Shown in pieces: positions 7,279-54,296 of a stretch of DNA of 64,000 nucleotides. Every line of letters begins with the position of its first letter. The first letter of the stretch is position 1. The position numbers and the translations under genes are program-made. The notes beneath the pieces are model-generated. The model did no database searches. It worked only from the letters and a program-made list of their open reading frames with translations, and was not told where the DNA came from. The DNA is from an uncultured Bacteroidales bacterium (lineage in GTDB: Bacteria > Bacteroidota > Bacteroidia > Bacteroidales > Muribaculaceae): NCBI GenBank assembly GCA_949289215.1, contig CASENC010000018.1, forward strand, positions 28,445 to 92,444. Direction: 5' to 3'.

Positions 7279-7369
7279 AAGGAGTAGAATTTTATTGATG
7301 CTTGCAGCAAGAATTTGGTGCAAGTTTTTTTATTTTTAGGATATAGGAAGCCGATTATATATGACAAAT

Positions 7370-7404
7370 AAGGCTGATTGGTAAGGACTTGACCAATCAG
7401 CCTT
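7370..7404. terminator. Bidirectional terminator
   Basis: AAGGCTGATTGGT (7370-7382) pairs perfectly with 7392-7404 around a 9-base loop. It sits between the small membrane protein gene (+) and the acyl-CoA ligase gene (-), which converge. Confidence 0.8.
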
Positions 7405-7427
7405 GTTCGTTTTTATTGAGTACGGGG

Positions 7428-9080
7428 TTAACAGTGCTTGTTGCGGATTTCCACGCGGCGTATTTTGCCGCTGATGGTCTTGGGTAACTCATCGACAAAC
7501 TCTACCACTCGCGGGTATTTGTAAGGAGCGGTGGTGTGCTTCACGTGGTCTTGTATTTCTTTCACGAGTTCGGGGCCTTCTTTGCCTTTATATTCTTTCG
7601 ATAGCACAATGGTGGCTTTTACCACTTGCCCGCGTATCTCGTCGGAAACGCCGGTGATGGCGCATTCCACCACGGCGGGATGCGTCATCAGTGCCGATTC
7701 CACCTCGAAGGGGCCTATGCGGTATCCGCTCGACTTGATGACATCATCTTTACGCCCTATGAACCAGTAATAGCCATCTTCGTCGCGCCAGGCCACATCG
7801 CCGGTGTGGTAAATGTCGTCGTGGTATTGTTGGTGCGTCAGTTCCGGGTCGCGGTAGTATTCTTTGAATAGACCTACGGGTCGCTTGCCGTGTGTCTTCA
7901 CCACTATTTCGCCCTCTTCGCCGTCTTCGGCCCAGCGGCCGTCGGATGTGAGCAGCGCGATGTCGTAAACAGGGCCTTTTTTCCCCATCGAGCCGGGACG
8001 CGGTTCCACCCAAGGGTATGTGCCTATGGTTACCGTGGTTTCGGTTTGCCCGTATGCTTCCATCAGTTTTATCCCGGTGAGCTTGTACCACTCGTCATAC
8101 ACGCTTGGGTTCAATGCCTCGCCTGCAATGGTGCAATACTTCAGGGTGGAGAGGTCGAATTGGGTGAGGTCTTCACGAATAAGGAAGCGGAACACCGTGG
8201 GTGGAGCGCAGAACGATGTGATGCCGTAGTTGTGTATCATGTGCAGCACGTCCACGGGCTTGAATTTTTCGAAATCATATACAAACACGTTGGCACCCAC
8301 GAGCCATTGTCCGTAGTATTTGCCCCACACGGCTTTTCCCCAACCGGTGTCGGCAAGAGTGAAGTGCAGGCTGTCCTCATCGAGGTTGTGCCAATATTTT
8401 GCGGTGATTATGTGCCCTAACGGGTAGGTGAAGGTGTGCGCCACCATCTTCGGTTCACCGGTTGTGCCCGATGTGAAATACATCAATGAGATGTCGTCGT
8501 TGTCATTGACAAATTCCGGGCGCACAAATTCCGGAGCTTCTTCGCAGCCCCGGTTGAAATCTTCCCATCCTTCGGGTATTTCAGGGCCTATCGATATGAC
8601 CCGTTTCACCGACGGAGATTGCGGCAGGGCGCGGTTGATGTGTTCCACCACTATGTCGTCGCCCACGGCCACTATGGCCTTGATGTCGGCGGCGTTGGCG
8701 CGGTAAATGATGTCTTTCTCGGTGAGCAGGTGCGTTGCGGGTATCACCGTCGCCCCAATCTTGTGTAAGGCTGTGATGGCAATCCAGAACTGGTAACGGC
8801 GTTTCATTATTAGCATCACCATGTCGCCGTGGCCTATGCCGAGTTGCGTGAAATATGATGCTGCCTTGTCGCTTTCGCGCTTTATGTCGGCAAAGGTGAA
8901 TTGCCTTGACTCTCCTTGTTCGTTCACCCATAGCAGGGCTTTCTTTTCGGGAGCTATGCGCGCCCATTCGTCAACCACGTCATATGCGAAATTGAAATTA
9001 TCGGGCACATTGATGTGGAAGTTCTGCATGAAGTCCTCATAGGAACTGAAGTCTATTTTGTCAAGAAATTTTTCTAACAT
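7428..9080 (-). CDS. AMP-forming acyl-CoA synthetase
   Basis: A 550-residue adenylate-forming enzyme of the acetyl/medium-chain acyl-CoA synthetase type: carboxylate + ATP + CoA gives acyl-CoA + AMP + PPi. Visible motifs: P-loop-like YFTSGTTGEPKMVAH, the A5 motif EAYGQTETT, the hinge region TGDVAWRDEDGYYWFIGRKDDVIKSSGYRIGPFEVES and the A10 lysine motif LPKTISGKIRR. Length fits the family. I start it at 9080 (MLEKFLDKIDF); the frame stays open to 9140. The XRE-cupin regulator gene lies immediately upstream in the same direction, a pairing I recall from Bacteroides genomes, which suggests that regulator controls this enzyme. Confidence 0.9.
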   Translation of the reverse strand: MLEKFLDKIDFSSYEDFMQNFHINVPDNFNFAYDVVDEWARIAPEKKALLWVNEQGESRQFTFADIKRESDKAASYFTQLGIGHGDMVMLIMKRRYQFWIAITALHKIGATVIPATHLLTEKDIIYRANAADIKAIVAVGDDIVVEHINRALPQSPSVKRVISIGPEIPEGWEDFNRGCEEAPEFVRPEFVNDNDDISLMYFTSGTTGEPKMVAHTFTYPLGHIITAKYWHNLDEDSLHFTLADTGWGKAVWGKYYGQWLVGANVFVYDFEKFKPVDVLHMIHNYGITSFCAPPTVFRFLIREDLTQFDLSTLKYCTIAGEALNPSVYDEWYKLTGIKLMEAYGQTETTVTIGTYPWVEPRPGSMGKKGPVYDIALLTSDGRWAEDGEEGEIVVKTHGKRPVGLFKEYYRDPELTHQQYHDDIYHTGDVAWRDEDGYYWFIGRKDDVIKSSGYRIGPFEVESALMTHPAVVECAITGVSDEIRGQVVKATIVLSKEYKGKEGPELVKEIQDHVKHTTAPYKYPRVVEFVDELPKTISGKIRRVEIRNKHC

Positions 9081-9127
9081 TTTTATAGAAAGTATAATCA
9101 AATAAGTAAATTGGTAAGGTAGGCAGT

Positions 9128-9155
9128 GGAGACGCAGCACGCCACGTCTCTACAG
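9128..9155. repeat. Short palindromic element
   Basis: GGAGACG...CGTCTCT with GCAGCACGCCAC between the arms. The GAGACG/CGTCTC arms around a GTGGCGTGC-type centre recall the short palindromes scattered in many bacterial genomes. It lies in the 113-base gap between the XRE-cupin and acyl-CoA ligase genes. Copy number cannot be judged from one window. Confidence 0.4.
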
Positions 9156-9193
9156 CCATCGTATAAACAAAATTGATGTTTATGCCCGGAATA

Positions 9194-9751
9194 TCATGAA
9201 ATTATGGCGAGGAAACGCACCGGCTTGTTGTCGAGGGCGCGCATACGGTGGGGCAGTGCCGAGTTGAAGATGATGCTGTCGCCGGTTTCGAGCGTGAAAG
9301 TGTTTCCGGCTATTTGTATCTCCATGCGTCCTTCCACCACATAGTTAAATTCCTGCCCGTCGTGGGTGTTGTAGTTGCCGCGAGGCTGTTCGCTCGGTTC
9401 CACGGTTACCATGTAGGGGTTGATTACCTTGTTTGAAAATCCGGCGGCAAGGGCTTCGTAGCTGTAAGCCTTTGAGCGTTCCACGCTCACGCCGTTGCCG
9501 CGGCGGGTGACGAAGTAGCTGCTCATCTTGGGTTCCTCGCCGAAGAGTATTGCAGGCAGTTCCACCCCGAACTTGTGGGCGAGAGTGCGCACAAAGCTCA
9601 CCGGAATGTCGGCAGTGCCGTTTTCATAGGCGCGGTAAGTGTCGCAGTCGATGCCACACACGTTGGCCACTTCCTCGGCACTCATGTCCAAAGCCTCGCG
9701 CAGTCCCTTGAGCCGCTTGGCCACATCTTCGATGTTTTCGATTTTTGTCAT
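9194..9751 (-). CDS. XRE-family transcriptional regulator with cupin sensor domain
   Basis: A 185-residue regulator. Residues about 10-65 form a lambda-repressor-type helix-turn-helix (LREALDMSAEEVANVCGIDCDTYRAYENG). Residues about 110-185 form a cupin_2 barrel (HDGQEFNYVVEGRMEIQIAG, GDSIIFNSALPHRM), the usual small-molecule-binding half of these proteins. It lies directly upstream of, and codirectional with, an AMP-forming acyl-CoA synthetase, so it probably senses a carboxylate or acyl-CoA related to that enzyme and regulates the pair. A CAAATATA (minus-strand TATATTTG) -7 element at 9838-9845 may start the transcript. Confidence 0.9.
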   Translation of the reverse strand: MTKIENIEDVAKRLKGLREALDMSAEEVANVCGIDCDTYRAYENGTADIPVSFVRTLAHKFGVELPAILFGEEPKMSSYFVTRRGNGVSVERSKAYSYEALAAGFSNKVINPYMVTVEPSEQPRGNYNTHDGQEFNYVVEGRMEIQIAGNTFTLETGDSIIFNSALPHRMRALDNKPVRFLAIIS

Positions 9752-10138
9752 ATCTGTAATATGTTATTTTGTTTCTTTGTTAACATTTTAAGTGTTAAAC
9801 AGTAGCTTGAAAACCGTGTTTCTTAACTGCTTTGAAGCAAATATATTGAAAATGGAAACACATAGGAAAACAATTTAAGAAAAAAGAATATTTTTTTACC
9901 TATTTATGGCACGCATTGCCCTCAAGTGTGCAAAAATATGCACATAACCGCCTGATGTGTGCTGATTTAAGTGCGGTTTTTATCGTTCCGGTCAGGTTAA
10001 AAATAGGTTTTATAAAAATTGCAATAAATGCAAAGAAAACAACAAAATAGTCGCAAAGAAAAATTGATAAAAATTATAAAAATAAAGATATTAATTCATA
10101 TCTTTGAATGAAATTAATCCAATAAAAAGGATTTTGTC
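9752..10138. other. AT-rich divergent intergenic region
   Basis: 387 bases between the XRE-cupin gene (-) and the RHS gene (+). It holds a minus-strand -7 element TATATTTG (9838-9845) and a plus-strand TATCTTTG (10099-10106) 33 bases before the RHS start. Runs of A between 10020 and 10090 are pronounced. I see no RNA gene or repeat. Confidence 0.5.
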
Positions 10139-43732: not shown

Positions 43733-44383
43733 ATGAAACCCATATATTTGATACTGTCGATGCCGTTTGACAAAGTTGAAACTTGCGGCTCTCGTTTTTG
43801 GGGCAATCCCGACCTCCCTCATGGCGTGGATTACCCGACGTATGTCGATGATGAAGGTGATGACTACCCGTATTACTTCATTTGCCAGATAAACCTTGAG
43901 CAATTGGCTCCGTTTGACACCGAGAATCGGCTGCCACACAAAGGGTTGCTGTCGTTTTTCGCGAAAATAGACCACTACATGGGCTATTTTGCCGCAACCG
44001 GCGGAATTGGAGGCTGCATAAGTGACCCCGATGACGTGAAAGTGTTGTATTTCCCCGAATGCAACGACGATTTCCGTGAGGTGGTGCTGGTTGATGATGA
44101 CGGAGAGCCTACCTCTCCTAAGGAGATGGAAATAAAATTTGCCCATGCCATTGAGCGATATTCCGACGAGCACGCCTTGTTTGCTCCACCCACGCACCGG
44201 GAATGGGAAACTTGGGATCCGCCATACGAGAATTGGGAGATATTGTTGCAAATAGATTCTTTCTGCGGCATGGATTTCAATCTTAATTTCATGGATTGCG
44301 GCGTGCTCGATTTCTTGATTGACCCCGACGACTTAAAGAAGCACCGGTTTGACAACGTTCGTGCCATTGTGTTATCGACGTAA
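43733..44383 (+). CDS. YwqG-like protein (DUF1963)
   Basis: A 216-residue cytosolic protein with the DUF1963/YwqG pattern: KVETCGSRFWGNPDLPHGVDYP (G-S-x-x-G-G/N-x-P-xLP), YYFICQINLEQLAPFD, LPHKGLLSFFAK, KVLYFPECNDDF, LLQIDSFCGMDFNLNFMDCGVLDFLIDPDDLKKHRFDNV. YwqG homologues have no firm function but often sit with polymorphic toxin immunity genes. Its last 12 bases overlap, convergently, the end of the RiPP cluster methyltransferase. Confidence 0.8.
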   Translation: MKPIYLILSMPFDKVETCGSRFWGNPDLPHGVDYPTYVDDEGDDYPYYFICQINLEQLAPFDTENRLPHKGLLSFFAKIDHYMGYFAATGGIGGCISDPDDVKVLYFPECNDDFREVVLVDDDGEPTSPKEMEIKFAHAIERYSDEHALFAPPTHREWETWDPPYENWEILLQIDSFCGMDFNLNFMDCGVLDFLIDPDDLKKHRFDNVRAIVLST

Positions 44384-44935
44384 CCGACAATCGGCCACAT
44401 ATACATTATATGCCGTGCCATAATGTGGCAGAGTGGCGATATCGTAAATTCCGGAAACGCTAATGCCGCTTTGGGATGCCGCAATGATTAATTCCTCGTG
44501 CGAGAAACCGTCGTGCGGGGAATAATCGTTTTTATGGAACGGTTTGCCCGGAACCGGTTCATATTCGCAAATAAGCAATTGCCCCGACGGGCGTAACAAT
44601 AATCGCCGTGCTGCCGACAATTCGGCCACGGTATTGGTAATATGGTGCAGTGAAAGGAAATAATAAATTACATCGAAGCTCCCCTGCACGGCAAGAATGT
44701 CGCATTGTTTTATGGCGACGTTCTTATCTCCCGGCCAACGTCCGTCTAATGTCGCGATGGCGGTTTTGTCAACATCGATAAGCGTAAGCCGTCTGGCGAG
44801 GGAACGCATATAACCGGCAGCCACACCATGTCCGCACCCCACTTCAAGCATCGCGGGCGAAGCGGCGGTAATGAGCGAGGCAGATTTTTCAGCAAATAAC
44901 CGCCCGGTTTCCAAGTCGGTAGCCGATGCAGCCAT
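44372..44935 (-). CDS. Class I SAM-dependent methyltransferase, last gene of the RiPP operon
   Basis: A 187-residue cytosolic methyltransferase: AdoMet motif I MLEVGCGHGVAAGYM (about residues 29-43), acidic motif II LTLIDVDKTAI, CDILAVQGSFDVIYYFLSLHHI (motif IV region) and a ubiE-like later part (RRLLLRPSGQLLICEYEP). The substrate cannot be read. The start codon abuts the M42 peptidase stop without a gap, so it is coexpressed and may methylate the peptide product or an intermediate; alternatively it is a passenger. Confidence 0.8.
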   Translation of the reverse strand: MAASATDLETGRLFAEKSASLITAASPAMLEVGCGHGVAAGYMRSLARRLTLIDVDKTAIATLDGRWPGDKNVAIKQCDILAVQGSFDVIYYFLSLHHITNTVAELSAARRLLLRPSGQLLICEYEPVPGKPFHKNDYSPHDGFSHEELIIAASQSGISVSGIYDIATLPHYGTAYNVYVADCRLRR

Positions 44936-45982
44936 TTACAAGGTGAATGTCGGCAATTCGTCATTGCCGTTGTCAAGTCTTTTGATGAAAGCGGCAAGCA
45001 AGCCTATGCATCCTTTTACATCGCGTAGCGAGCATTTCTCGTTATGGGTGTGCATATATTTGCATGGAATGGCAATGTCCATAACTGCAGTTTTGGGGGC
45101 AAAAAGTTGTATTCGTGAGGCATCGGTGCCGCCTGTCACGTTTCTCCCTACAGCAGTCTGTATAGGTATGCCGTTTTCCCTGCCGGTCTGTTCCACCATG
45201 CGTCGCAGAGCCGGATTACTGTCGGCATTGCGGTAAACCACGCATCCTTTGCCCACCTCGGGCAGGTCTTTCTTGTCAAGTTCTACGGCATCGGTCACAT
45301 CGATGTTTATGCATACGTCGGGTTGCACGTTTTGTGCCAGCACTGCCATTCCACGCAGGCCAATCTCTTCTTGCGTGGTTGCAGCAACCCACAAGCGCAC
45401 GTTTTTAAGTTTGCCGGCCAATTGTAAAAACACCTGCGACATGATATACACACCTATGCGGTCGTCAATCGATTTCGACGTGAGTATATCGTTAAATCCT
45501 ATATTGACATTCCTGTCGAAAGTCGCAAAGTCGCCCACGGCCACGCGCCGTGAGGCATCTTCACGACAGGTGGCGTCGATGTCGATGTAGCAGTCGCTTA
45601 TGTCGGGAATCACATTATTGTTACCCTGTTGTTTGCACACTACCACGCCGCACGTCAATGCACCCGATTCGCTGCGCAATTCCACTCTTTGACCTATGAT
45701 ATTCAACGTGTTCAGGCCGCCTATGCGGCGCACACGCAGCAGTCCGTTGTCGCAAATTGCCGTTACTTGAAGGCCTATTTCATCAATATGGGCCGAAAGC
45801 ATCACACTGTATCTTCCGGCAATATTTGTAGTCAGCAGAGAGTTGCCCATTTGGTCGGTGTGGATTTCTTCGGCCTTGTTACCCACATACTGCCTGAAGC
45901 GTTCCACCGGTTCGCGTTCGTTGCCCGAGGTGCCTCCCGCAATCAACAGCGATTGCAGGAATGTTTCATCTAATTCACTCAT
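44936..45982 (-). CDS. M42-family metallo-aminopeptidase
   Basis: A 348-residue dinuclear metallopeptidase of the M42 (PepA/glutamyl aminopeptidase/endoglucanase M) family. Metal ligands are complete: SAHIDEIG, KSIDDRIG, TTQEEIG (catalytic Glu and ligand), CINIDVTDA and YMHTHNEKC. TSGNEREPVERFRQY is the typical opening. The start at 45982 overlaps the SDR stop as ATGA; a longer frame reaches 46024. In this operon it could trim leader fragments or recycle the modified peptide, an inference from position. Confidence 0.88.
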   Translation of the reverse strand: MSELDETFLQSLLIAGGTSGNEREPVERFRQYVGNKAEEIHTDQMGNSLLTTNIAGRYSVMLSAHIDEIGLQVTAICDNGLLRVRRIGGLNTLNIIGQRVELRSESGALTCGVVVCKQQGNNNVIPDISDCYIDIDATCREDASRRVAVGDFATFDRNVNIGFNDILTSKSIDDRIGVYIMSQVFLQLAGKLKNVRLWVAATTQEEIGLRGMAVLAQNVQPDVCINIDVTDAVELDKKDLPEVGKGCVVYRNADSNPALRRMVEQTGRENGIPIQTAVGRNVTGGTDASRIQLFAPKTAVMDIAIPCKYMHTHNEKCSLRDVKGCIGLLAAFIKRLDNGNDELPTFTL

Positions 45983-46704
45983 AATATCCCGGCATTTATG
46001 TGAATATTTTCTCCCGTTATGCAATGGCTTTTGTCGCTTGTGAGGTAATCGATGGTGTTGACTACCGAATCGGCATCGATGAGACGGCGCAATGCCGAAA
46101 TCGATTTCAGTTGCTCGGTAAGTCGCTCGTTGACGGTTTCTTTCATGCCTATTTCCATAAGGCCTATGACGACAGTGTTGGAACGTATCCCGAAGCGTCC
46201 GTATTCATATGCCGTGTCTTGCGAGAATGTCTCGATGGCAGCTTTTGTTGCCCCTATCATCGACAACCCGTAAAACGAGCGGTGTGCGCAAATCGACGAG
46301 ATGTGCACGATTATGCCCTTGGTTTTGTTACGCATGAAATTATTCAGCACCATTTTAGTCACAATCATGGGCGATGTCACGTTGATGGCCACCATCTTGG
46401 CAAGTTCTTCGCCCTTGATGCGGTGTATCAGGTCTTTATATAGAATGGCGGCATTGTCGATGAATATGTCTATCTTTTCCGATGCAAGCGACAATGTTTC
46501 TTCGAGCCTGGTGTCGAGGTCGTCGATATTGCCAAGGTCGAATTGCTTCCACACCAGTCTTTCGGGGTATTGCTCTATCAAATCGGCAAGTTGCCGGCTG
46601 CACGTGCGACTTACGCCTATCACCCGGTAGCCCATACGCAGATAATGTTCGGTAAGTTTCAACCCGAGTCCGCGTGAAATTCCGGTTATAAATACGGTTT
46701 TCAT
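45979..46704 (-). CDS. Short-chain dehydrogenase/reductase
   Basis: A 241-residue SDR. The cofactor motif VFITGISRGLGLKL (TGxxxGxG), DNAAILYKD (NNAG-like), catalytic Ser in VHISSICAHRSFYGLSMIGATKAAIETF with the YxxxK region changed: here Tyr (FYGLSMIGATK) is followed five residues later by other residues, with Lys in ATKAA, so the Tyr-Lys spacing should be checked. It lies 18 bases after a radical SAM gene and overlaps the peptidase gene by ATGA, so it probably acts in the same pathway. Confidence 0.8.
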   Translation of the reverse strand: MKTVFITGISRGLGLKLTEHYLRMGYRVIGVSRTCSRQLADLIEQYPERLVWKQFDLGNIDDLDTRLEETLSLASEKIDIFIDNAAILYKDLIHRIKGEELAKMVAINVTSPMIVTKMVLNNFMRNKTKGIIVHISSICAHRSFYGLSMIGATKAAIETFSQDTAYEYGRFGIRSNTVVIGLMEIGMKETVNERLTEQLKSISALRRLIDADSVVNTIDYLTSDKSHCITGENIHINAGIL

Positions 46705-46722
46705 AGCTATGGTTTTTTTCGT

Positions 46723-48042
46723 TTAAATAAGTTTCTCAATGTATTCTTGCAGGTTGCTCCCCGATTCGTCCAGGCAACGTTCATTCAGGCGTTCGAGCAA
46801 CGTCTGCTTCACCATTTCGCATGTGAAACGGCACACTTCGTCGAGGTGCTTGTCGTCATATAAATCATTGGGACACATACAACCGCCTCCGCAATGCCAC
46901 TTGGCATAGCAGTGTGTGCATTTCTCGAATGAATACACATTTATGCCATGTATCATATTGAACTTGTCATCGTCGATATGCACACCGGCAGTATCAATGT
47001 GGCCGTAGGTGCGTGCGGCATATTGCTTTTCGCGTGGCGACGATGTGCAATAGCAAATGGAAATGTCGCCCTGCGGAGTGAGCGTGAATTTGCTCGGGCA
47101 GCCGCGTTCAAGCAGCGAATCGATATTCTTGTAGATGCGGCAGGTGACTGTTTTCCCCTTTTGGGCAGCATGGCGGCGCACACGCATGAAACCATCGAGG
47201 TATGCAGCATAAAAATCACGCAAATCTCGCGGGGTGGGAAATATGGCGTCAGACACTACCGGTTCAAACACCATGTTAACAATCCTCGGGAAACGGGTGT
47301 CCATGAAATCGAGCATTTCGTCCATGCGGTTTGCCGTGTCGGGAGTGATGGTGGCATTGACCGATGGTACCAAGCCAGCATCGCAAAGCATATCGAGCGT
47401 GCGGCACACTGCATCAAAGTGGCGGCGGTTTTTGTTTTGAGCATCTTCAAGTATGTCAAACGATACATCGGGCAGCACTTCGTATTGCTTCAGGCAACCT
47501 ATGATTTCATCATTCATTATCGACCCATTGGTGATGAGCGTCATGAGCAGGTTGAAGCCATGCCTGTGAGCCAGTTCCGATGCATATTCAATGCCATAGC
47601 GCACCAAATCCCACGACAATAACGGTTCACCACCGCCTATGAATGAAATGCTTATGTTGCGCTCCCGCAAGCGGCCTGGATTGATGAAATATTCAAGCCC
47701 TGTGCGCAATTTGTCTTTTTCAAGCACTGTGTTGCTGCGTCCGCGGGCCGAGTAGCAATATGAGCAGCTGAAGTTGCACGTGTGGTTGGGAAGTATCGAC
47801 ATTTTCTGCAAGTCGGCGGCACACCCGACTTTGCTGAAAAATCGTTTCGGGTCGCCTGAAACCGTCAATTCATCGACAACAGCATCCAACTGCCTGGATA
47901 TGCCTTCCTCGTCGGCAACAAGCATTTTGCCCGCAAGTGGTGCATACACTATGTAAAACTCTTTGCCGGCCGCCGGATTGCCAAGGCAGTCGCTGACAGG
48001 TATAAGGAAAATATTTTTCTCGTTGAGTGCTATTTCGTCCAT
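46723..48042 (-). CDS. Radical SAM/SPASM peptide maturase (E)
   Basis: A 439-residue enzyme. The N-terminal 85 residues hold an IVYAPLAGKMLVADEEG block shared with the other four; then the radical SAM core with C89xxxC93xxC96 (PNHTCNFSCSYCYSARGR), FIGGGEPLLSW (GGE motif), and a C-terminal SPASM domain (CYCTSSPREK, KCTHCYAKWHCGGGCMCPNDLYDD) for two further Fe-S clusters. Radical SAM/SPASM enzymes modify ribosomal peptides, commonly by thioether or C-C bond formation at Cys. Start at 48042 (MDEIALNEK) lies one base after the stop of the unknown 181-residue gene. Fifth and last maturase of the operon. Confidence 0.9.
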   Translation of the reverse strand: MDEIALNEKNIFLIPVSDCLGNPAAGKEFYIVYAPLAGKMLVADEEGISRQLDAVVDELTVSGDPKRFFSKVGCAADLQKMSILPNHTCNFSCSYCYSARGRSNTVLEKDKLRTGLEYFINPGRLRERNISISFIGGGEPLLSWDLVRYGIEYASELAHRHGFNLLMTLITNGSIMNDEIIGCLKQYEVLPDVSFDILEDAQNKNRRHFDAVCRTLDMLCDAGLVPSVNATITPDTANRMDEMLDFMDTRFPRIVNMVFEPVVSDAIFPTPRDLRDFYAAYLDGFMRVRRHAAQKGKTVTCRIYKNIDSLLERGCPSKFTLTPQGDISICYCTSSPREKQYAARTYGHIDTAGVHIDDDKFNMIHGINVYSFEKCTHCYAKWHCGGGCMCPNDLYDDKHLDEVCRFTCEMVKQTLLERLNERCLDESGSNLQEYIEKLI

Positions 48043-48043
48043 A

Positions 48044-48583
48044 TCAATTGTTCCGTTTTTGTACCGACTTAAATTCCATATATTTTTGCCTGATTTCATC
48101 GTCGGAAAGGCTGTTCCCCTTGCTTACAAGAATAAAAGCATTGGCATCGAGCATGTCAACCGACCGCAAATCCAGTTCATCAAGTAAAGGCATGAAAAAA
48201 TACCGGTAAAGTTTTAATTTCCTCGACATTCCTTCGGCCGGTTCACCGGGGGCATAGCTGCCGCTTATCACCATTGCGCTGTCGGGGTCTTGTGCAATGA
48301 AGTGGTTGACAAATATCACCACACATGTCACCGAGAGCCGTCGCATATTCACTGCCAGCCCTTCGTGGCTGGTAAATCGCTTGAAGCAATTGTTGTCGTT
48401 TTCATACATTTGTGGGAAGATGTCGGTCACATACAGCCAACTTCCATACCTGTAGGAGCGGAAAATGTAATCAAGCATCACATCGCGTCCTGTGCAGGGC
48501 ACTTTAAGCCCATAATCGATGACGGCATCAAATGGTGCACGGTCGGTGGCAGTCTTGATATATTTGTAGTCATATATCTGCAT
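48044..48583 (-). CDS. Unknown protein embedded between radical SAM genes
   Basis: A roughly 180-residue soluble protein (start MQIYDYKYIK at 48583; MPM two codons earlier is possible). No cysteine motif for Fe-S clusters and no signal peptide. Recognisable stretches: DYGLKVPCTGRDVMLDYIFRSYRYGSWLYVTDIFPQMYEND and GMSRKLKLYRYFFMPLLDELDLRSVDMLDANAFILVSKGNSLSDDEIRQKYMEF. It overlaps the upstream radical SAM stop by a few bases and lies one base before the next radical SAM start. Not a familiar RRE; it may be a peptide-binding chaperone or another enzyme. Function unknown. Confidence 0.75.
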   Translation of the reverse strand: MQIYDYKYIKTATDRAPFDAVIDYGLKVPCTGRDVMLDYIFRSYRYGSWLYVTDIFPQMYENDNNCFKRFTSHEGLAVNMRRLSVTCVVIFVNHFIAQDPDSAMVISGSYAPGEPAEGMSRKLKLYRYFFMPLLDELDLRSVDMLDANAFILVSKGNSLSDDEIRQKYMEFKSVQKRNN

Positions 48584-49874
48584 CGGCATTCTCTTTAAAG
48601 CGTTTAAGCAATATTCGGCGCGTGAAATCGCGTGTCCAGTGGCAAATCACATTTATGTGTGCAGGGCTATATATCTCTGATTGGGCAAGGCAGCCGCCAC
48701 CGCAGTGCCACTTGGCAAAGCAGTTGCGACATTCGGCACGTGAATTTATGTCATGGGATATGAGTGCTTGGAACTTGGGTATATCGACGGTAACTTTGCC
48801 TGTATCATCGATTGAGCCGTAAACAAAGTGTTCATATCCCTCTTCGAGTGGCGACGACTTGCGGTGGCAAATGGTAATAGTGCCTTCAGGGTTGAGGCAC
48901 ATTTCGCCGCCGCAGTAATGCTCGATGAGCATATCCACATATTTTGAAGCAAGCACATATACATCAATGCCAAGGTCGCGTCCAAGTTGCTCGGCATCGA
49001 AAAAATGCGCCGTGAAATCACGGTAAAATTGTTCCATGACTGCCGTATCGGCAAGCATCACCGGGTCTTCCACTATTTGCAACTTGTATTTTTTCACAGC
49101 CGGGAACAGGCGGTGCAATTCTTCCACCATTTCGCCGAGGCGGTTGACGTTGGCCGGGGTTATGATTGACTTGACGGTTATGTCCACGCCATCGTCCATA
49201 TATTGTGTCACCACCGGCACTACACGCTCGTAATGCCCGCGTTGGCTGTTTTGTATATCTTCGAGTACTTCAAACGATACTCCGAGCGATACCTTGTTGC
49301 GTATCATTATGCCCGACAGGGTACGGCTGTAAACCGACCCGTTGGTAGTAAGGCCTATTCCAAGGTTGAACCCCTGTTCCGCGGCTCGCTTTTGTGCGTG
49401 GGTGATTATTTCTCCGGTAAATTCGGGCGAAAGGAACGGTTCGCCGCCTCCAAGTATGGCAAGCCATAGGTCATGCAGAGTGGTTCGGCGACGGTCGATG
49501 AAATAATCTATCATGCCGATAGCCTTTTCCCGTGACATGATTTTACTTTGTCGTCCCTCGGCCGAATAGCAATAACTGCACTTGAAATTGCAACGGTAAG
49601 TGGGCAATATGCTCAATTTGTGTATTTGCGAAGGGTCGTTTTTTGATGGTATGGTTCGGTGACTTTTACGCTCCGAGTTCACATAATCAAGCAATTCCTT
49701 TATCTCCTTATCAATCTCGCCTGTGGCGATGCAATTATCCACCTTTGCCGTGTCGGCAGCAGGCATGGGAAACATAAGCCCTGATAACGGTGCATATATC
49801 AGATAGTTGCCATCGTCTATCGGCAAGGGGTATAATTCTTTCTCCTTCAAGTGGGAAAATTGCTGTTCATTCAT
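48570..49874 (-). CDS. Radical SAM/SPASM peptide maturase (D)
   Basis: A 434-residue paralogue. N-terminal part with YLIYAPLSGLMFPMPAADTAK; radical SAM cysteines C95, C99, C102 (PTYRCNFKCSYCYSAEGR); AILGGGEPFLSPEF; SPASM end ECRNCFAKWHCGGGCLAQSEIYSP...VICHW. The start codon overlaps the previous maturase stop (ATGA), and its stop overlaps the following unknown gene, so expression is coupled. Diverged enough from its neighbours that separate substrates or positions on one peptide are plausible. Confidence 0.9.
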   Translation of the reverse strand: MNEQQFSHLKEKELYPLPIDDGNYLIYAPLSGLMFPMPAADTAKVDNCIATGEIDKEIKELLDYVNSERKSHRTIPSKNDPSQIHKLSILPTYRCNFKCSYCYSAEGRQSKIMSREKAIGMIDYFIDRRRTTLHDLWLAILGGGEPFLSPEFTGEIITHAQKRAAEQGFNLGIGLTTNGSVYSRTLSGIMIRNKVSLGVSFEVLEDIQNSQRGHYERVVPVVTQYMDDGVDITVKSIITPANVNRLGEMVEELHRLFPAVKKYKLQIVEDPVMLADTAVMEQFYRDFTAHFFDAEQLGRDLGIDVYVLASKYVDMLIEHYCGGEMCLNPEGTITICHRKSSPLEEGYEHFVYGSIDDTGKVTVDIPKFQALISHDINSRAECRNCFAKWHCGGGCLAQSEIYSPAHINVICHWTRDFTRRILLKRFKENADADI

Positions 49875-51220
49875 GGCTGCATCATATTTTCGATTATTGT
49901 TTCTATGCCGTTTCCTTCTTCCGACGCAAGCGATGCATCAAGGCGGCGCAACATTATGCCGCCAATCATAAGTCGCATGAAACGGCACCACTCGTCAAAT
50001 TCGGTCGGAGTGTAGTTCATGTTATACATCATGCAACCGCCTGCACAGTGCCACCGGGCTATACATGAGCGGCATCCGTCGTGTACATATGATGTGGTAT
50101 CGACAAGCCTGTTAAAGTGCTCGGTGTCAAATTTCACACAGCCGTTTTCCACGCACCCGTATATTGCCGTGTCGTATCCTCGGTCATGGGGCGACGATAT
50201 GCTGTGGCACATCGATATTTTCCCTTCAGCCGTGAGGCATAATTTCCCTTGGCAATAGCGCGGGAACAGTTTTTCGGCTCGGCGCACGGCATTGCAGTCG
50301 AGTGTGAGGCCGTGCAAACGGGCATAATCCTTGGCTTTGAAGAAGTTGCCGGCAAAATCGTTGTAAAATTGCCTCATCTTGCATGTGTCGCCAAATGACT
50401 TCATTGCCGGGTCGAAATTCAAGTGCCTTATCCCCGGGAAACCTTGCACCACGGCATCGACCATATCTTGCATACGCCCCACATTAAGCTCGGTAATGAC
50501 TGAACTTAAGGTTGGTACAAGTGCGCAGTCGAGCATCAGCCGCAGGTTGCTTGCCACACGGTCGTAATGTCCGCGTTGGCTGTTTTGTACCTCGGGCAAT
50601 ATTTCAAACGACACGCCCACCTGCACGCGTTGCCGTTTAAGCGTGTCGATGATTTCACGGGAAATGAGAGTGCCGTTGGTCATCAAGTAAATGTCGAGGT
50701 TAAATCCCTGTTCCGAGGCCCGGCATCGGCTGTATTCTACTATGAATTTTACTTTTGCCCACGAAACGGTAGGTTCGCCGCCGCCCGATATGAATATGGA
50801 AATATCATTGTCGTTGTTGATGCGCCGGTTATCGATGAAATAATCGAGCATCGTGTGCATGGCCTCTATTGATACTTCGGTCTTTGACCTGCCACGGGCC
50901 GAGTAACAATAACTGCATGACAAGTTGCACATCAGGTTGGGCAAGATGCTCAGTTTTGTGTATTGCGACGGGTGTGATATTATGCGTTTCGAGAAATCGC
51001 CTTCCGACTTGTCTTTTAACTGTGCGGCAAGTGTGGCAAGTTCCTCATCATCGGCATTGCCGGCCATTGCACGGTCAAGCCGTTCTGCCTCGTCGGCATC
51101 GGCAAGGAAATATATTCCGGCAAGTGGTGCATAAACAAGGAACACCTTACCTTGCGGAATATCATAATAGTGGCACAAGTCGGCCAACTGAACGTCGTTA
51201 TTATTCAGGTTTCGGTGCAT
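49871..51220 (-). CDS. Radical SAM/SPASM peptide maturase (C)
   Basis: A 449-residue paralogue (start MHRNLNNND at 51220; the open frame extends to 51292 but would overlap the upstream gene heavily). N-terminal FLVYAPLAGIYFLADADEAER; cluster C98, C102, C105 (PNLMCNLSCSYCYSARGR); FISGGGEPTVSW; SPASM DGCRSCIARWHCAGGCMMYNMNYTP. It overlaps maturase B by 16 bases and maturase D by ATGA. Confidence 0.9.
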   Translation of the reverse strand: MHRNLNNNDVQLADLCHYYDIPQGKVFLVYAPLAGIYFLADADEAERLDRAMAGNADDEELATLAAQLKDKSEGDFSKRIISHPSQYTKLSILPNLMCNLSCSYCYSARGRSKTEVSIEAMHTMLDYFIDNRRINNDNDISIFISGGGEPTVSWAKVKFIVEYSRCRASEQGFNLDIYLMTNGTLISREIIDTLKRQRVQVGVSFEILPEVQNSQRGHYDRVASNLRLMLDCALVPTLSSVITELNVGRMQDMVDAVVQGFPGIRHLNFDPAMKSFGDTCKMRQFYNDFAGNFFKAKDYARLHGLTLDCNAVRRAEKLFPRYCQGKLCLTAEGKISMCHSISSPHDRGYDTAIYGCVENGCVKFDTEHFNRLVDTTSYVHDGCRSCIARWHCAGGCMMYNMNYTPTEFDEWCRFMRLMIGGIMLRRLDASLASEEGNGIETIIENMMQP

Positions 51221-52530
51221 CTGGCTTGTCGGTCTAAATATTCTGCCTTGTTGAGCAATGCAATGAGCGAGAATTTGCGCTGGAAGTTGCACATCACATC
51301 AAGCATCTCGGGCGTATATGATTTCATGTGATAAAGACATCCGCCACCGCAATGCCACCTTATGAAACAATGGCGGCACTCGTCGCGGCGGTTTTCACTC
51401 GCTTCGACAAGGTCGCGGAATTTCTCGCGGTCGAATTCGAGCCGGCCATCGCCGTTCACTTTCCCGTAAATAAAATCGTCATATAGCAGTTCTTGTGGCG
51501 ATGAGACAAAAAAGCACATACTGAACCGACCCTGTGGAGTGAGGTCGAAACCACCGGCGCAGGCTCGCGTCTTTATTTGTTCAAGGTTATGGTATTTGAT
51601 GCTGCTCACCGATATGCCGTATTGCATTCCAAGTTTTTGTGCTTGGAAAAAATTGTCGATGTAAGTGTCGTAGAACTTTTTCAATTCCTCGACAGCCTCA
51701 AATAAATTGCCATCTACCACATAATCGAAACTCAAGCGGCGCAATCCGGGAAACCTGTCATGCACGCGTTCAACCATTTCGCATTGCCTTACCACATTGA
51801 GCGGTGTGATTACCGAATTGATAGTGGGTGTGATGTCATGCGCAAGCAGTGTGTCGAGTGTATGGCACACCCGCTCGTAGTTGCGCCGTTGCGCGTTTTG
51901 CACATCTTCAAGAATGTCAAATGATATGTTTGTCTTTATATTGTACCGGTGAATGGCATTGATGATTTCATCGCTCATGATCGACCCGTTTGAGGCAAAC
52001 GAGTATCGTATCGTGAACCCGTGCTTCAGTGCAAGGGCGTCGCTGTATTCGAGTGCGAGCTTCATCTTTGGCCACGACAGCAACGGTTCGCCACCGCCGC
52101 CAAATGAGATGTACAAGTCGCGCCGTGACAACCGTTCAGGGTCGATGAAATAATCAAGTACGGCCCGAATGGTGCCGTCGCTCAATTCATCATGCCCATG
52201 CCCGCGTGCCGCGTAACAGTAGCTGCACGAGAAGTTGCAAATGTTATTGGGCAATATTGTCAGTGCAAACACATCGTGAGGGTCGGTGACAAAATTCGGG
52301 CGCGGCGGGTTGTAATGTAGCATAGCCTGTTCCTCGCCGTAAATCACGCCATGTTCCCCAAGTTCGCGGTTCATGCGGTCAACGTCACTGCCGTCAGCCA
52401 CAGCCATCACCCCGGCCAGCGGTGAATACAGCAGGTAACGGTCGTTGCAATATCCGCGAAGATAGTCGGATATATGCACCGGATATATGTTATGGCTGTA
52501 TAATGCTTCGTACCTGTCCATGATTGTCAT
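51205..52530 (-). CDS. Radical SAM/SPASM peptide maturase (B)
   Basis: A 441-residue paralogue, starting MTIMDRYEA at 52530 so that it overlaps the maturase A stop as ATGA. N-terminal YLLYSPLAGVMAVADGSDV; C98, C102, C105 (PNNICNFSCSYCYAARGH); YISFGGGGEPLLSW; SPASM ECRHCFIRWHCGGGCLYHMKSYTPEMLDVMCNF. Shares its plan with the other four enzymes but is not a recent duplicate. Confidence 0.9.
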   Translation of the reverse strand: MTIMDRYEALYSHNIYPVHISDYLRGYCNDRYLLYSPLAGVMAVADGSDVDRMNRELGEHGVIYGEEQAMLHYNPPRPNFVTDPHDVFALTILPNNICNFSCSYCYAARGHGHDELSDGTIRAVLDYFIDPERLSRRDLYISFGGGGEPLLSWPKMKLALEYSDALALKHGFTIRYSFASNGSIMSDEIINAIHRYNIKTNISFDILEDVQNAQRRNYERVCHTLDTLLAHDITPTINSVITPLNVVRQCEMVERVHDRFPGLRRLSFDYVVDGNLFEAVEELKKFYDTYIDNFFQAQKLGMQYGISVSSIKYHNLEQIKTRACAGGFDLTPQGRFSMCFFVSSPQELLYDDFIYGKVNGDGRLEFDREKFRDLVEASENRRDECRHCFIRWHCGGGCLYHMKSYTPEMLDVMCNFQRKFSLIALLNKAEYLDRQARCTET

Positions 52531-53894
52531 GCTTGTTCCACGGCCTCTCTGAGCGAGATGCCACATTCCTGGCGGTACTTCTTGTCGAGTCCGCGCAGCA
52601 GCATACGCTTGGTGAACGCCCGCATATAATTGCATATTTCATCCCTTATGGCCTCGTTGTAGGTGTATTTGTGTATCATGCAACCGCCCGCGCAGTGCCA
52701 TTTTGCCCAACAATCCTTGCATTTGGGGTAATGATAAACATTCAGGCCTATCAGGTGGAAAAACTTGTCGCGGTCGATGTCAACTGTGCCGTCGGTGTGG
52801 TAGCGGCCATATATGCTGTCGTTGTACCCCACGTCGGCCGGAGCGCCTATGCGGCTGCACACGCTGATTTCGCCATCGGGTGTAAGCGTGTTGTCGCCAG
52901 GGCAAAAGCGTTGTATAAGCAAATTGAAGTTACGGTAGGCCGAGCAATCAAGCAGCAGGCCGTGTTCGGCAGCATAATCGTGAGCCTCGAAGAAGTTTTC
53001 CAAATATTGTTCATAGAAATGCCGCACCTGCATGGGGTCGGTCATCTTTTCGGGGTCGGTCACGTATTCCATCATCACCTCGCGAGTGCCGGGGAAGCGG
53101 GTAAGCACCTCCTCGATCATGCGTTTCATGAGCGAAATGTTGGCTTCGGTGATGCAGGCACGCAATTGCGGGCGTATTCCCTCGGATATAATCCAATCGA
53201 TGTTCTGGCACACTTTTTCGTAATGGCCTCGTTGCAGGTTCTGCATCTCTTCGAGTATCTCAAATGAAATCGATACGGGCACCTTGTATTTCTTGAGCGT
53301 ATCAATCATTTCTTGCGTGAAAATCGAGCCGTTGGTTACAAGGTTGATGTCCATGCCGCGGAAACCCATTGCCGTGCTGCGCTCGTTGGAATATTCGATT
53401 ATGAATTTCACCAGGTCCCACGACAACATCGGTTCTCCACCGCCAAGTATCGAAATTGCCAATTTGTTGGATGGCTCCACGCGGCGGTTGTCGATAAAAT
53501 GGTCGAGTGCGGCCTTGAGCATCTCTTTGGAAATCACTTTTCCCGAGCGGCCATGTGCCGAGTAGCAATAGCTGCAACGGAAATTGCACACGTTGTTGGG
53601 CAAAATTGCCATGCGCGTGTAGTGCAGAGGGTCATCGGCAAGCGGGGCGGGTTTCAGCCGGTGGTCGAAGTCGGTGAGTGCATCCATGGCTTCCACCACG
53701 TCGCCGGGCAGCTCTGTGCGTTTTTCCGGTGTCGCCAAGTATTGTTCCATCATTTCCACATATTCCCGGGTCACCATTAAGGCATTGTCGGTAAATGGGG
53801 AATATACTATATAAAGTGATTCGGCGTCTTTGCCGAAGTATTCCCCTGCTGGAATGGGGAATATTTCATTTTCAATAAGTTCAGGGTATTGCAT
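52527..53894 (-). CDS. Radical SAM/SPASM peptide maturase (A)
   Basis: A 455-residue enzyme, the first maturase after the precursor. N-terminal LYIVYSPFTDNALMVTREYV (a variant of the YAPLAG block); C103, C107, C110 (PNNVCNFRCSYCYSAHGR); SILGGGEPMLSW; SPASM domain with KCKDCWAKWHCAGGCMIHKYTYNEAIRDEICNY. It begins 111 bases after the precursor stop and lies just past a hairpin that may reduce read-through, giving more precursor than enzyme. Confidence 0.9.
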   Translation of the reverse strand: MQYPELIENEIFPIPAGEYFGKDAESLYIVYSPFTDNALMVTREYVEMMEQYLATPEKRTELPGDVVEAMDALTDFDHRLKPAPLADDPLHYTRMAILPNNVCNFRCSYCYSAHGRSGKVISKEMLKAALDHFIDNRRVEPSNKLAISILGGGEPMLSWDLVKFIIEYSNERSTAMGFRGMDINLVTNGSIFTQEMIDTLKKYKVPVSISFEILEEMQNLQRGHYEKVCQNIDWIISEGIRPQLRACITEANISLMKRMIEEVLTRFPGTREVMMEYVTDPEKMTDPMQVRHFYEQYLENFFEAHDYAAEHGLLLDCSAYRNFNLLIQRFCPGDNTLTPDGEISVCSRIGAPADVGYNDSIYGRYHTDGTVDIDRDKFFHLIGLNVYHYPKCKDCWAKWHCAGGCMIHKYTYNEAIRDEICNYMRAFTKRMLLRGLDKKYRQECGISLREAVEQA

Positions 53895-53952
53895 TGGGGG
53901 GAATGACTGTGGTATTATAATAAGTGTTATTTATATGTTGCATTTAAAATTA

Positions 53953-53984
53953 GAAGGCACCTGCCATTGGAAGCAGGCACCTTC
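53953..53984 (-). terminator. Hairpin between precursor and first maturase (partial terminator)
   Basis: As minus-strand RNA: GAAGGTGCCTGC pairs with GCAGGTGCCTTC (12 pairs, two of them G-U) over an 8-base loop, followed by TAATTTTAAAT. As plus-strand RNA the two G-U positions become C/A mismatches, so the stem is only strong on the precursor's strand. It is placed 22 bases past the precursor stop. Confidence 0.7.
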
Positions 53985-54005
53985 CGTTTACCTTATGGCC
54001 GGTTC

Positions 54006-54095
54006 TTAGTTGTTGCATTGGCAACCTCCACATTGGTCGCAGCAACCGTAAGCGTTAGCCTTGGTTTCCTTTACTTTGAAAACTTTAGTTATCAT
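54006..54095 (-). CDS. Cys-rich RiPP precursor peptide (29 residues)
   Basis: A 29-codon ORF missed by usual length cutoffs. The N-terminal 15 residues (MITKVFKVKETKANA) are lysine-rich, cysteine-free and would be the leader; the last 14 are YGCCDQCGGCQCNN with five Cys at 18, 19, 22, 25 and 27, a glycine- and polar-rich core. Five radical SAM/SPASM genes follow, so it is the expected substrate, with Cys-based thioether or other crosslinks likely. It lies 111 bases before the first maturase, separated by a hairpin, and behind a plausible promoter. No other short Cys-rich ORF was seen in this intergenic region. Alternative: a ferredoxin-like or metal-binding mini-protein, less likely by context. 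Confidence 0.82.
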   Translation of the reverse strand: MITKVFKVKETKANAYGCCDQCGGCQCNN

Positions 54096-54264
54096 AGTAA
54101 TTCTCGTTTGTAATATGCTCCTACTCTGTTTGGGCTTTTCGGATTCCGCCATTTATTTGTCACAGACGTATTATATTTATAGGTTTAAGTTAATGAATAG
54201 CAACTCGTGTAATCATGCGGACGTTAAGTCCAAACAAATTGCGACATTACCATTTATGCAAGTA

Positions 54265-54296
54265 CGAAAGTAATACATACTTGGCTTTTTTGCAAG
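54265..54296 (-). promoter_or_regulatory. Putative promoter of the RiPP operon
   Basis: Minus strand: CTTGC (54296-54292), 20 bases, TACTTTCG (54272-54265), one base off the TAnnTTTG consensus, at correct spacing. It would give a leader RNA of about 160 bases before the precursor ATG at 54095. Confidence 0.5.

Follow-up and report, generated by a model that had tools for sequence, protein, structure and literature searches.

Background

What would a peptide of 29 residues need five radical S-adenosylmethionine (SAM) enzymes for? The question is raised by an operon in contig CASENC010000018.1 of an uncultured Muribaculaceae bacterium, of which a stretch of 64,000 nucleotides, called the window here, was analysed. 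Compact and on the reverse strand at 54,152-44,372, the operon runs from an RNA leader through a peptide gene and a hairpin to the enzyme genes. Radical SAM pathways for ribosomally synthesised and post-translationally modified peptides (RiPPs) usually carry one or two such maturases. A preliminary description of the window could match the operon to no described class, and our comparisons agree with it: no curated precursor family fits the peptide, and the enzymes score below the cut-off of every maturase model listed. We conclude that this is probably the biosynthetic operon of a RiPP family matching none of the named ones searched. The general hallmark of a RiPP cluster, a short conserved precursor gene beside tailoring enzymes, was found at 12 of 12 loci compared, and what stands out is that paralogous five-enzyme sets are kept with one 29-residue peptide across bacterial families.

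The features are as follows; loci and genomes of the comparison set carry L and G numbers.

54118..54152, reverse strand: DUF805b RNA motif (RF02914), hairpin and pseudoknot (UCC with GGA), 5' leader; 44.8 bits, E 2.1e-11
54006..54095, reverse strand: precursor peptide gene of 29 codons, MITKVFKVKETKANAYGCCDQCGGCQCNN; kept in 12 array loci
53952..53985, reverse strand: terminator-like hairpin between precursor and enzymes; folding z -4.28, terminator consensus scan
52527..53894, reverse strand: r1, radical SAM/SPASM maturase; domain models, orthologues in L048, L136 and L049
51205..52530, reverse strand: r2, radical SAM/SPASM maturase; domain models, motifs and tree
49871..51220, reverse strand: r3, radical SAM/SPASM maturase, start inferred (reading frame open from 51292); domain models, motifs and tree
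48570..49874, reverse strand: r4, radical SAM/SPASM maturase; domain models, motifs and tree
48044..48589, reverse strand: u181, 181-residue orphan partner protein; relatives fused to a radical SAM enzyme in L136 and L058
46723..48099, reverse strand: r5, radical SAM/SPASM maturase, alternative start 48042; domain models, motifs and tree
45979..46704, reverse strand: oxidoreductase of the short-chain dehydrogenase/reductase (SDR) family; domain models
44936..45985, reverse strand: M42-family aminopeptidase, candidate leader-trimming enzyme; Pfam Peptidase_M42, 212 bits
44372..44935, reverse strand: SAM-dependent methyltransferase; domain model, L048 relative 39% identical

All genes stand where the preliminary description placed them, on one strand, and family models bear out its SDR, M42 and methyltransferase calls; we add to it that an RNA leader precedes the peptide gene, that a hairpin stands at 53985-53952 and that the operon lacks a transporter gene. 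Neighbouring genes overlap, abut or lie at most 20 bases apart, except for 111 bases 3' of the peptide gene, and u181 is placed between the fourth and fifth radical SAM genes. The start of r2 was taken at MTIMDRY, giving a 4-nt overlap with r1, within a longer open reading frame (ORF) that opens at 52635. The host genome measures 2.58 Mb in 52 contigs and belongs to the same genus as G138.

The precursor peptide

Judged by its conservation, the unannotated 29-codon ORF at 54095-54006, which is present as first described, is a real peptide gene. It is not a chance frame, since all 12 loci that hold at least two close relatives of the enzymes carry it and since every base change between the window and L048 in its last 15 codons is silent. 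Over the whole gene these two copies differ by eight silent and four replacing changes, the latter confined to the first 13 codons. A 48-codon reading from 54152 exists in the same frame and was rejected: its ATG falls inside the DUF805b motif, and in G042 the corresponding frame meets TAA after seven codons, so the 29-codon start is likely the real one.

The precursor has a short, lysine-rich leader (MxTKVxKVK...) of about 16 residues by our estimate of the boundary, followed by a compact core with five cysteines, GCCDQCGGCQCNN in the window. In the alignment of the 12 loci, C18, C19, C25 and C27 are invariant and D20 nearly so (Glu in L058); this alignment and the search for the peptide in related loci, both proposed in the preliminary description, show it to be conserved in 12 of 12 arrays. 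The sister group described below has the core GCCDCFGGGCRCND, and in G042, from another genus, MKIVKVKKAQSKAAGCCDCFGGGCRCNH precedes five enzymes in a row. The peptide comes first in the array at ten loci. It lies between the second and third enzymes in L049, and in L055 two of the three enzymes follow it on its own strand, the third enzyme being on the other strand. None of ten array precursors (the L142 and L057 peptides were not among the ten) matched an NCBIfam precursor model, and only the L136 peptide scored in Pfam, below the cut-off, as a FeoB_associated Cys-rich protein (E 0.2). A scan of the window operon for Cys peptides gave no second convincing precursor candidate.

That sub-threshold match and the dense Cys motif suit another reading of the small ORF, as a metallothionein-like metal-binding mini-protein that regulates or supplies the enzymes and is not their substrate. 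A leader-core layout with a conserved lysine-rich N-terminus beside SPASM enzymes is typical of RiPPs, and the peptide has this layout. Moreover, SPASM enzymes usually modify peptides (PMC10352776; this paper and PMC9413430 are cited from excerpts of their text). We regard the mini-protein reading as very improbable.

Array loci

The family is patchily present among the window's kin. Of 297 genomes of the family queried with r1, four, the window's own counted, hold a strong relative (E 1e-40 or better); among 393 genomes of the order, three, again including the window's own, have matches at E 1e-55; and 395 genomes of the phylum queried with a sister enzyme returned only the window's own genome at E 1e-60. 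Named genomes scanned with ten enzymes gave at least 191 relatives in the stretches examined, of which 80 were kept, and a scan of viral contigs gave 28 loci. Two contig collections supplied 108 loci for a census in which an array was defined as at least two relatives over 200 bits; ten loci were arrays, and all ten carried the peptide. The window and L136 bring the set to 12 (window, L048, L049, L136, L051, L142, L057, L054, L056, L052, L055 and L058). L137, a near copy of L049, and L051, which is the same contig as G042/L014, were each counted once.

The arrays are hosted by Bacteroidota, Akkermansia, Lentisphaeria and one IMG/VR contig and comprise two to six enzymes. Exactly five array-family domains occur in six of the 12 (one pair being fused in L057) and six in three; the small arrays are L052 with two enzymes, L055 with three and L058 with four. 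The L057 fusion (7299-9971) is a protein of 890 residues with two CxxxCxxC motifs. The IMG/VR contig, L142, is filed as viral and may be bacterial DNA; it holds a full sister-type array, the peptide and DUF805b.

No multi-enzyme array over 200 bits was found apart from the peptide, a separation named in the preliminary description as grounds for refuting its reading. Against the link with the peptide stand loci outside that class: single relatives without it (L050, L053, L059 and L060, from Mediterranea, G138, Odoribacter and Streptomyces), the Chloroflexi locus L061, whose three relatives are more distant (153-181 bits), and a fused gene in G023. The single relatives in Mediterranea and G138 adjoin a different small peptide. 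The G023 protein (same genus as the window; L016 3746-6097) joins two radical SAM halves in 783 residues without the peptide; its second half is an array-family relative, and a 177-residue protein lies next to it. Plasmid-borne spread was considered and rejected: all 61 plasmid records lay below 60% identity, with 20 of them, among the matches listed, at 26.2% or less.

The radical SAM/SPASM enzymes

The preliminary description credited the operon with five full-length maturases, and r1-r5 are indeed intact, each with CxxxCxxC and GGE and each above the Pfam Radical_SAM cut-off. An alignment of 48 relatives shows no variation at cysteines 331, 346, 392, 395, 401, 405 and 421 (r1 numbering), whose spacing is that of SPASM domains. 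The five are paralogous, r2-r5 being 33-39% identical to r1. Viperin-type defence was rejected as an assignment, the scores being 41-52 bits against a cut-off of 180 for NF038283 and 46-58 bits for the PADLOC viperin model, which matched the radical SAM core only.

Phylogeny was inferred from a careful tree of 54 enzymes, and a quick tree of 51 shows the same groups; L142 is in neither tree, and L059 and L060 were left out of one. The r1, r2, r4 and r5 enzymes each form a clade (100/98 or better) to which the window, L048, L136 and L049 contribute a single copy apiece, whereas r3 is secure with L048 (100/100) and weakly placed with L049 and L136 (87/68). The order r1-r5 is identical in the window, L048 and L136, with the L136 r3 weakly placed. 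A sister type consists of five groups common to L051, L057, L054 and L056 (three supported at 100/99 or better, one at 100/97 and one at 92/88), one group being duplicated in L054 and L056 to give six enzymes. Because the clades are one-to-one across loci, the paralogues split before their hosts did and were kept. Judged by this tree, the five enzymes are lineages older than the host split and not recent copies, r3 securely so only with L048, which is the pattern that non-redundant maturases would show. The idea of several distinct modifications on one peptide, advanced in the preliminary description, thus gains support from the tree, although it remains unproven. The enzymes of L052, L055 and L058 fall into two neighbouring groups, apart from L058 r4, which sits on a long branch in an unsure place; this fits growth of the arrays by duplication.

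One group tracks a core residue. The L051 r4 group (99/96) contains L051 r4, L057 r3, L054 r5, L056 r5, L052 r2, L055 r2 and L058 r3, to which L142 r4 was added by best match and not by the tree. It is represented at each of the eight loci with Phe in the core and missing from the other four, which have none, a match that may reflect descent alone, since it is confounded by ancestry.

Co-conservation strongly suggests that all five maturases serve one core. One enzyme per cysteine was tried as a rule and rejected, since it fails for L052, L055 and L058 and also for L049, L054 and L056, where six enzymes stand with five core cysteines. Nor is one enzyme per modification a strict rule, given arrays of two to six enzymes with cores of five or six cysteines; in the arrays of two to four, a single enzyme can carry out more than one step, or part of the set may work elsewhere. 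The latter option leads to a further reading, that only one or two enzymes act on the peptide and the rest, together by history, act on other substrates. Two to four enzymes do suffice for similar cores in L052, L055 and L058. Exactly five domains in six arrays and six in three others argue the opposite, as do the retention of the enzyme sets across families and the failure to find a second convincing Cys peptide in the window operon. We hold this reading to be unlikely.

Partner proteins

No family could be named for u181 in the preliminary description, and none scored above its cut-off in NCBIfam, Pfam and the other collections (best PHROG E 0.011). Profile searches against Protein Data Bank (PDB) chains gave weak matches to unrelated proteins (best E 0.0092), and identification by that route was rejected. 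Relatives occur in the window, L048 (60% identical), L049 (37%), L136 and L058, and in the last two they are fused to the C-terminus of a radical SAM enzyme, which ties u181 to the array enzymes.

The other partners vary. In the stretches examined, M42 peptidase genes accompany six of the 12 arrays (window, L048, L051, L142, L057 and L052), so the peptidase cannot be essential at the locus everywhere. An SDR occurs at four (window, L048, L049 and L058) and the methyltransferase at two (window and L048). A B12-binding radical SAM gene with a formyltransferase-like gene is found at six (L051, L057, L054, L056, L052 and L055), and an RCK-like membrane protein at five (L051, L142, L057, L054 and L056). 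The L142 contig ends inside its M42 gene, and later genes are out of view. At the position that usually holds the active-site Tyr, the SDR (45979-46704) has Ile in the window and L048 and Tyr in L049; its activity may differ from that of ordinary SDRs.

An exporter or C39 peptidase was absent from the products of the window operon, all of which were scanned against family models, and inspection by eye of the other loci's ORF lists, from which only some ORFs were scanned, brought none to notice. As the operon lacks an exporter gene, the product may work intracellularly or exit along a general route. Biosynthetic use of a peptide as a scaffold is known from pyrroloquinoline quinone, mycofactocin and 3-thiaglutamate. 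By the same logic, the peptide here could be the scaffold on which a small cofactor, redox carrier or metal ligand for use inside the cell is built, and not an exported antibiotic, with the M42 peptidase cutting out the modified core and the SDR and methyltransferase finishing it. The missing exporter, the M42 aminopeptidase, which is of a cytosolic type, and finishing enzymes for oxidoreduction and for methyl and formyl transfer all agree with this. Against it, exporters encoded elsewhere could still serve the product, half of the arrays showed no M42 gene nearby, and a patchy presence (the four of 297 family genomes above) is unlike that of a core cofactor. On balance, a scaffold is possible but less likely than not.

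RNA leader, hairpin and locus history

The 3' end of the DUF805b motif lies 22 bases upstream of the peptide start, and the motif scores 44.8 bits against an Rfam gathering score of 35.6. It precedes the peptide above the gathering score in seven of the 12 arrays (window, L051, L048, L052, L054, L057 and L142); in L049, L056, L136, L055 and L058 it was below that score or not found before the peptide. A second helix forms a pseudoknot, in which loop NCC pairs with GGN after AGAGUA. Across 36 copies, 35 of them distinct, 99% of the cells of this helix are paired, with 17 double changes at one pair. When the partners are slid, for both helices taken together, paired cells fall from 91.8% to 55.5% or less and covariation from 0.491 to 0.188 or less; of the five measures used, two (the pairs that show a double change and the further pair types) are no higher than in shuffles. 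Outside the alignment are L042 for its shifted motif, L032 and L038 as duplicates, and L142 as a later find.

Within the 297 family genomes, 48 have a DUF805b match, 34 over the cut-off, and 30 loci were examined. Within the stretch examined, a radical SAM gene lies downstream on the same strand in ten of the 30, two of these being the window and G042 arrays, and upstream on either strand in one. Across the window and loci L018-L047, a small Cys-bearing ORF often stands between the motif and the radical SAM gene (for example in L018, L019, L025, L030, L031, L036 and L040), while other copies precede porin-like, DUF805/TM2-like (by eye) or unassigned genes. In the open-access literature we found no description of DUF805b function.

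The hairpin at 53985-53952 has a folding z of -4.28, none of 200 shuffles being as stable. It is the strongest of 18 terminator-like sites in the region (12.4 expected by the consensus scan), and a stable hairpin lies within 61 bases 3' of the peptide in nine of the 11 loci folded (exceptions L055 and L136; L142 was not folded). Standard sigma-70 promoter signs were uninformative, at 16 against 15.6 expected.

G044, which belongs to the same genus, has both flanks (93% and 92% identical) but about 10.5 kb of unrelated gene content between them in place of the operon, with a broken 3' remnant of the methyltransferase at one join (L180 12720-12912). The remnant suggests that the operon, or at least its methyltransferase, once stood there and was probably lost. 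G082 and G064 showed one of the two flanks only, within the stretch examined.

A second DUF805b-led peptide operon

In G138 (L015 3592-12345) and Mediterranea massiliensis (L050 5826-16357), DUF805b leads a different operon, with a conserved 39-residue peptide ending CDMCWGDLSL. These operons hold one array-family relative, another radical SAM gene, MiaB/RimO-type genes and an M42 peptidase; an S9 peptidase was confirmed in G138. The better-scoring RimO copies, at 457 bits in G138 and 462 in Mediterranea, lie elsewhere in the genomes. A second copy scores 374 and 372 bits, respectively; it lies in the operon in G138, and the Mediterranea coordinates fit the same arrangement. This operon may be a peptide methylthiolation system, possibly for a RiPP with methylthiolated Asp.

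Proposed pathway

The steps below are a working model drawn from gene content, conservation, orthology, the fusions, the RNA motif and the hairpin. Five SPASM paralogues, each its own lineage, would act on the same core, each installing one or a few specific radical-made bonds, and u181 would be a partner of these enzymes. The bonds would most likely be thioether cross-links on core cysteines, as PapB and CteB make. The M42 aminopeptidase could then chew the leader from its N-terminus until the cross-linked core stops it, and the SDR and methyltransferase would finish the product. The hairpin 3' of the peptide gene may be a partial terminator through which more peptide than enzyme is made, and the DUF805b leader would regulate expression.

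Several observations weigh against this RiPP reading. Orthology of r3 beyond L048 is weak; a leader-binding RiPP recognition element, which the preliminary description proposed to look for, was not detected by sequence, since a profile built from 11 sequences over the first 95 positions matched no PDB chain meaningfully (best E 3.2); enzyme number is unlinked to Cys number, with two, three and four enzymes (L052, L055 and L058) for cores of five or six cysteines; no M42 gene was found near L049, L136, L054, L056, L055 or L058; and the enzymes score below the cut-offs of PapB, SCIFF and the other listed maturases.

A bolder form of the model is an assembly line, in which five dedicated, non-redundant SPASM enzymes act in turn on the 13-residue core, each making a different bond, until nearly every residue is locked. 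The set would have grown by duplication, from two to three, four and then five or six enzymes, over a CCD...C.C scaffold and been matched to the core, and the product would be an intracellular ligand or cofactor and not an exported bacteriocin. This is conjectural, and we think it rather doubtful as a whole.

Arrays of two to six enzymes on a near-constant scaffold offer a natural experiment on the standing question of how similar SPASM enzymes pick different residues of one peptide. The operon is about 10 kb, a peptide of this length can be synthesised, and the role of each enzyme should be readable from mass shifts. The link to DUF805b provides a handle on that RNA motif and a marker for further peptide operons.

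Comparison with known systems

Could the operon belong to a known class after all? It might be an elaborate ranthipeptide operon, in which five enzymes perform the same Cys to non-alpha-carbon thioether reaction and differ in core position; this would make it a new branch of a known class and not a new class. Of the NCBIfam models, PapB (NF047865) scores highest with each of the enzymes (112, 96, 101, 108 and 102 bits for r1-r5), and the nearest solved structure by sequence is PDB 5wgg/5why (E 5e-36), named CteB in the excerpts of PMC10352776. PapB makes Cys-Asp/Glu thioethers with relaxed spacing, accepting Cys-Xn-Asp with n of 0-6 (PMC9413430), and the core offers CCD, with Cys beside Asp, and C-N. 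On the other side, all five fall short of the PapB cut-off of 340 bits by 228-244 bits, the window core has only one acidic residue, and a single PapB installs all six links of PapA (PMC9413430), so that five same-reaction enzymes for about five cysteines would be unusual. We consider a ranthipeptide a credible alternative, though the odds are somewhat against it.

The preliminary description named membership of a family with a different substrate as a point to check; the enzymes score below every listed maturase cut-off, with PapB the best model at 96-112 against 340. The thioether chemistry thus rests on distant kinship, by which analogy Cys-anchored thioether-type cross-links are the most likely bonds. 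No matching five-maturase peptide array was found in the open-access literature (subscription papers and preprints lay outside the scope), so an existing description is possible.

SCIFF/CteB and QhpD-type systems work with one maturase each, and the SCIFF precursor is longer and has six cysteines. SCIFF/CteB (TIGR03974) and QhpD-type (TIGR03906) enzymes share the SPASM architecture with r1-r5, which score 64-93 bits against their cut-offs of 425 and 453 (74-93 bits for SCIFF). Clo7bot (TIGR04334) and CcpM (TIGR04068) are likewise named maturases of Cys-rich peptides; among the best 25 models listed, Clo7bot appears for three of the five enzymes and CcpM for all five, at 41-71 bits against cut-offs of 600 and 500. 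The Bacteroidales radical SAM RiPP clusters (PMC10352776) belong to the same order and also set radical SAM genes beside small peptides. They differ, in the excerpts available, by a C39-type exporter in seven of nine selected clusters and by at most two radical SAM enzymes plus a pseudo-radical SAM protein being named, and the string CCDCFGG does not occur in those excerpts. The closest likeness is to PapA/PapB, where a radical SAM/SPASM maturase also works on a Cys-rich precursor; there one maturase serves the peptide (PMC9413430, as excerpted), whereas here five stand beside a precursor that fits no curated model.

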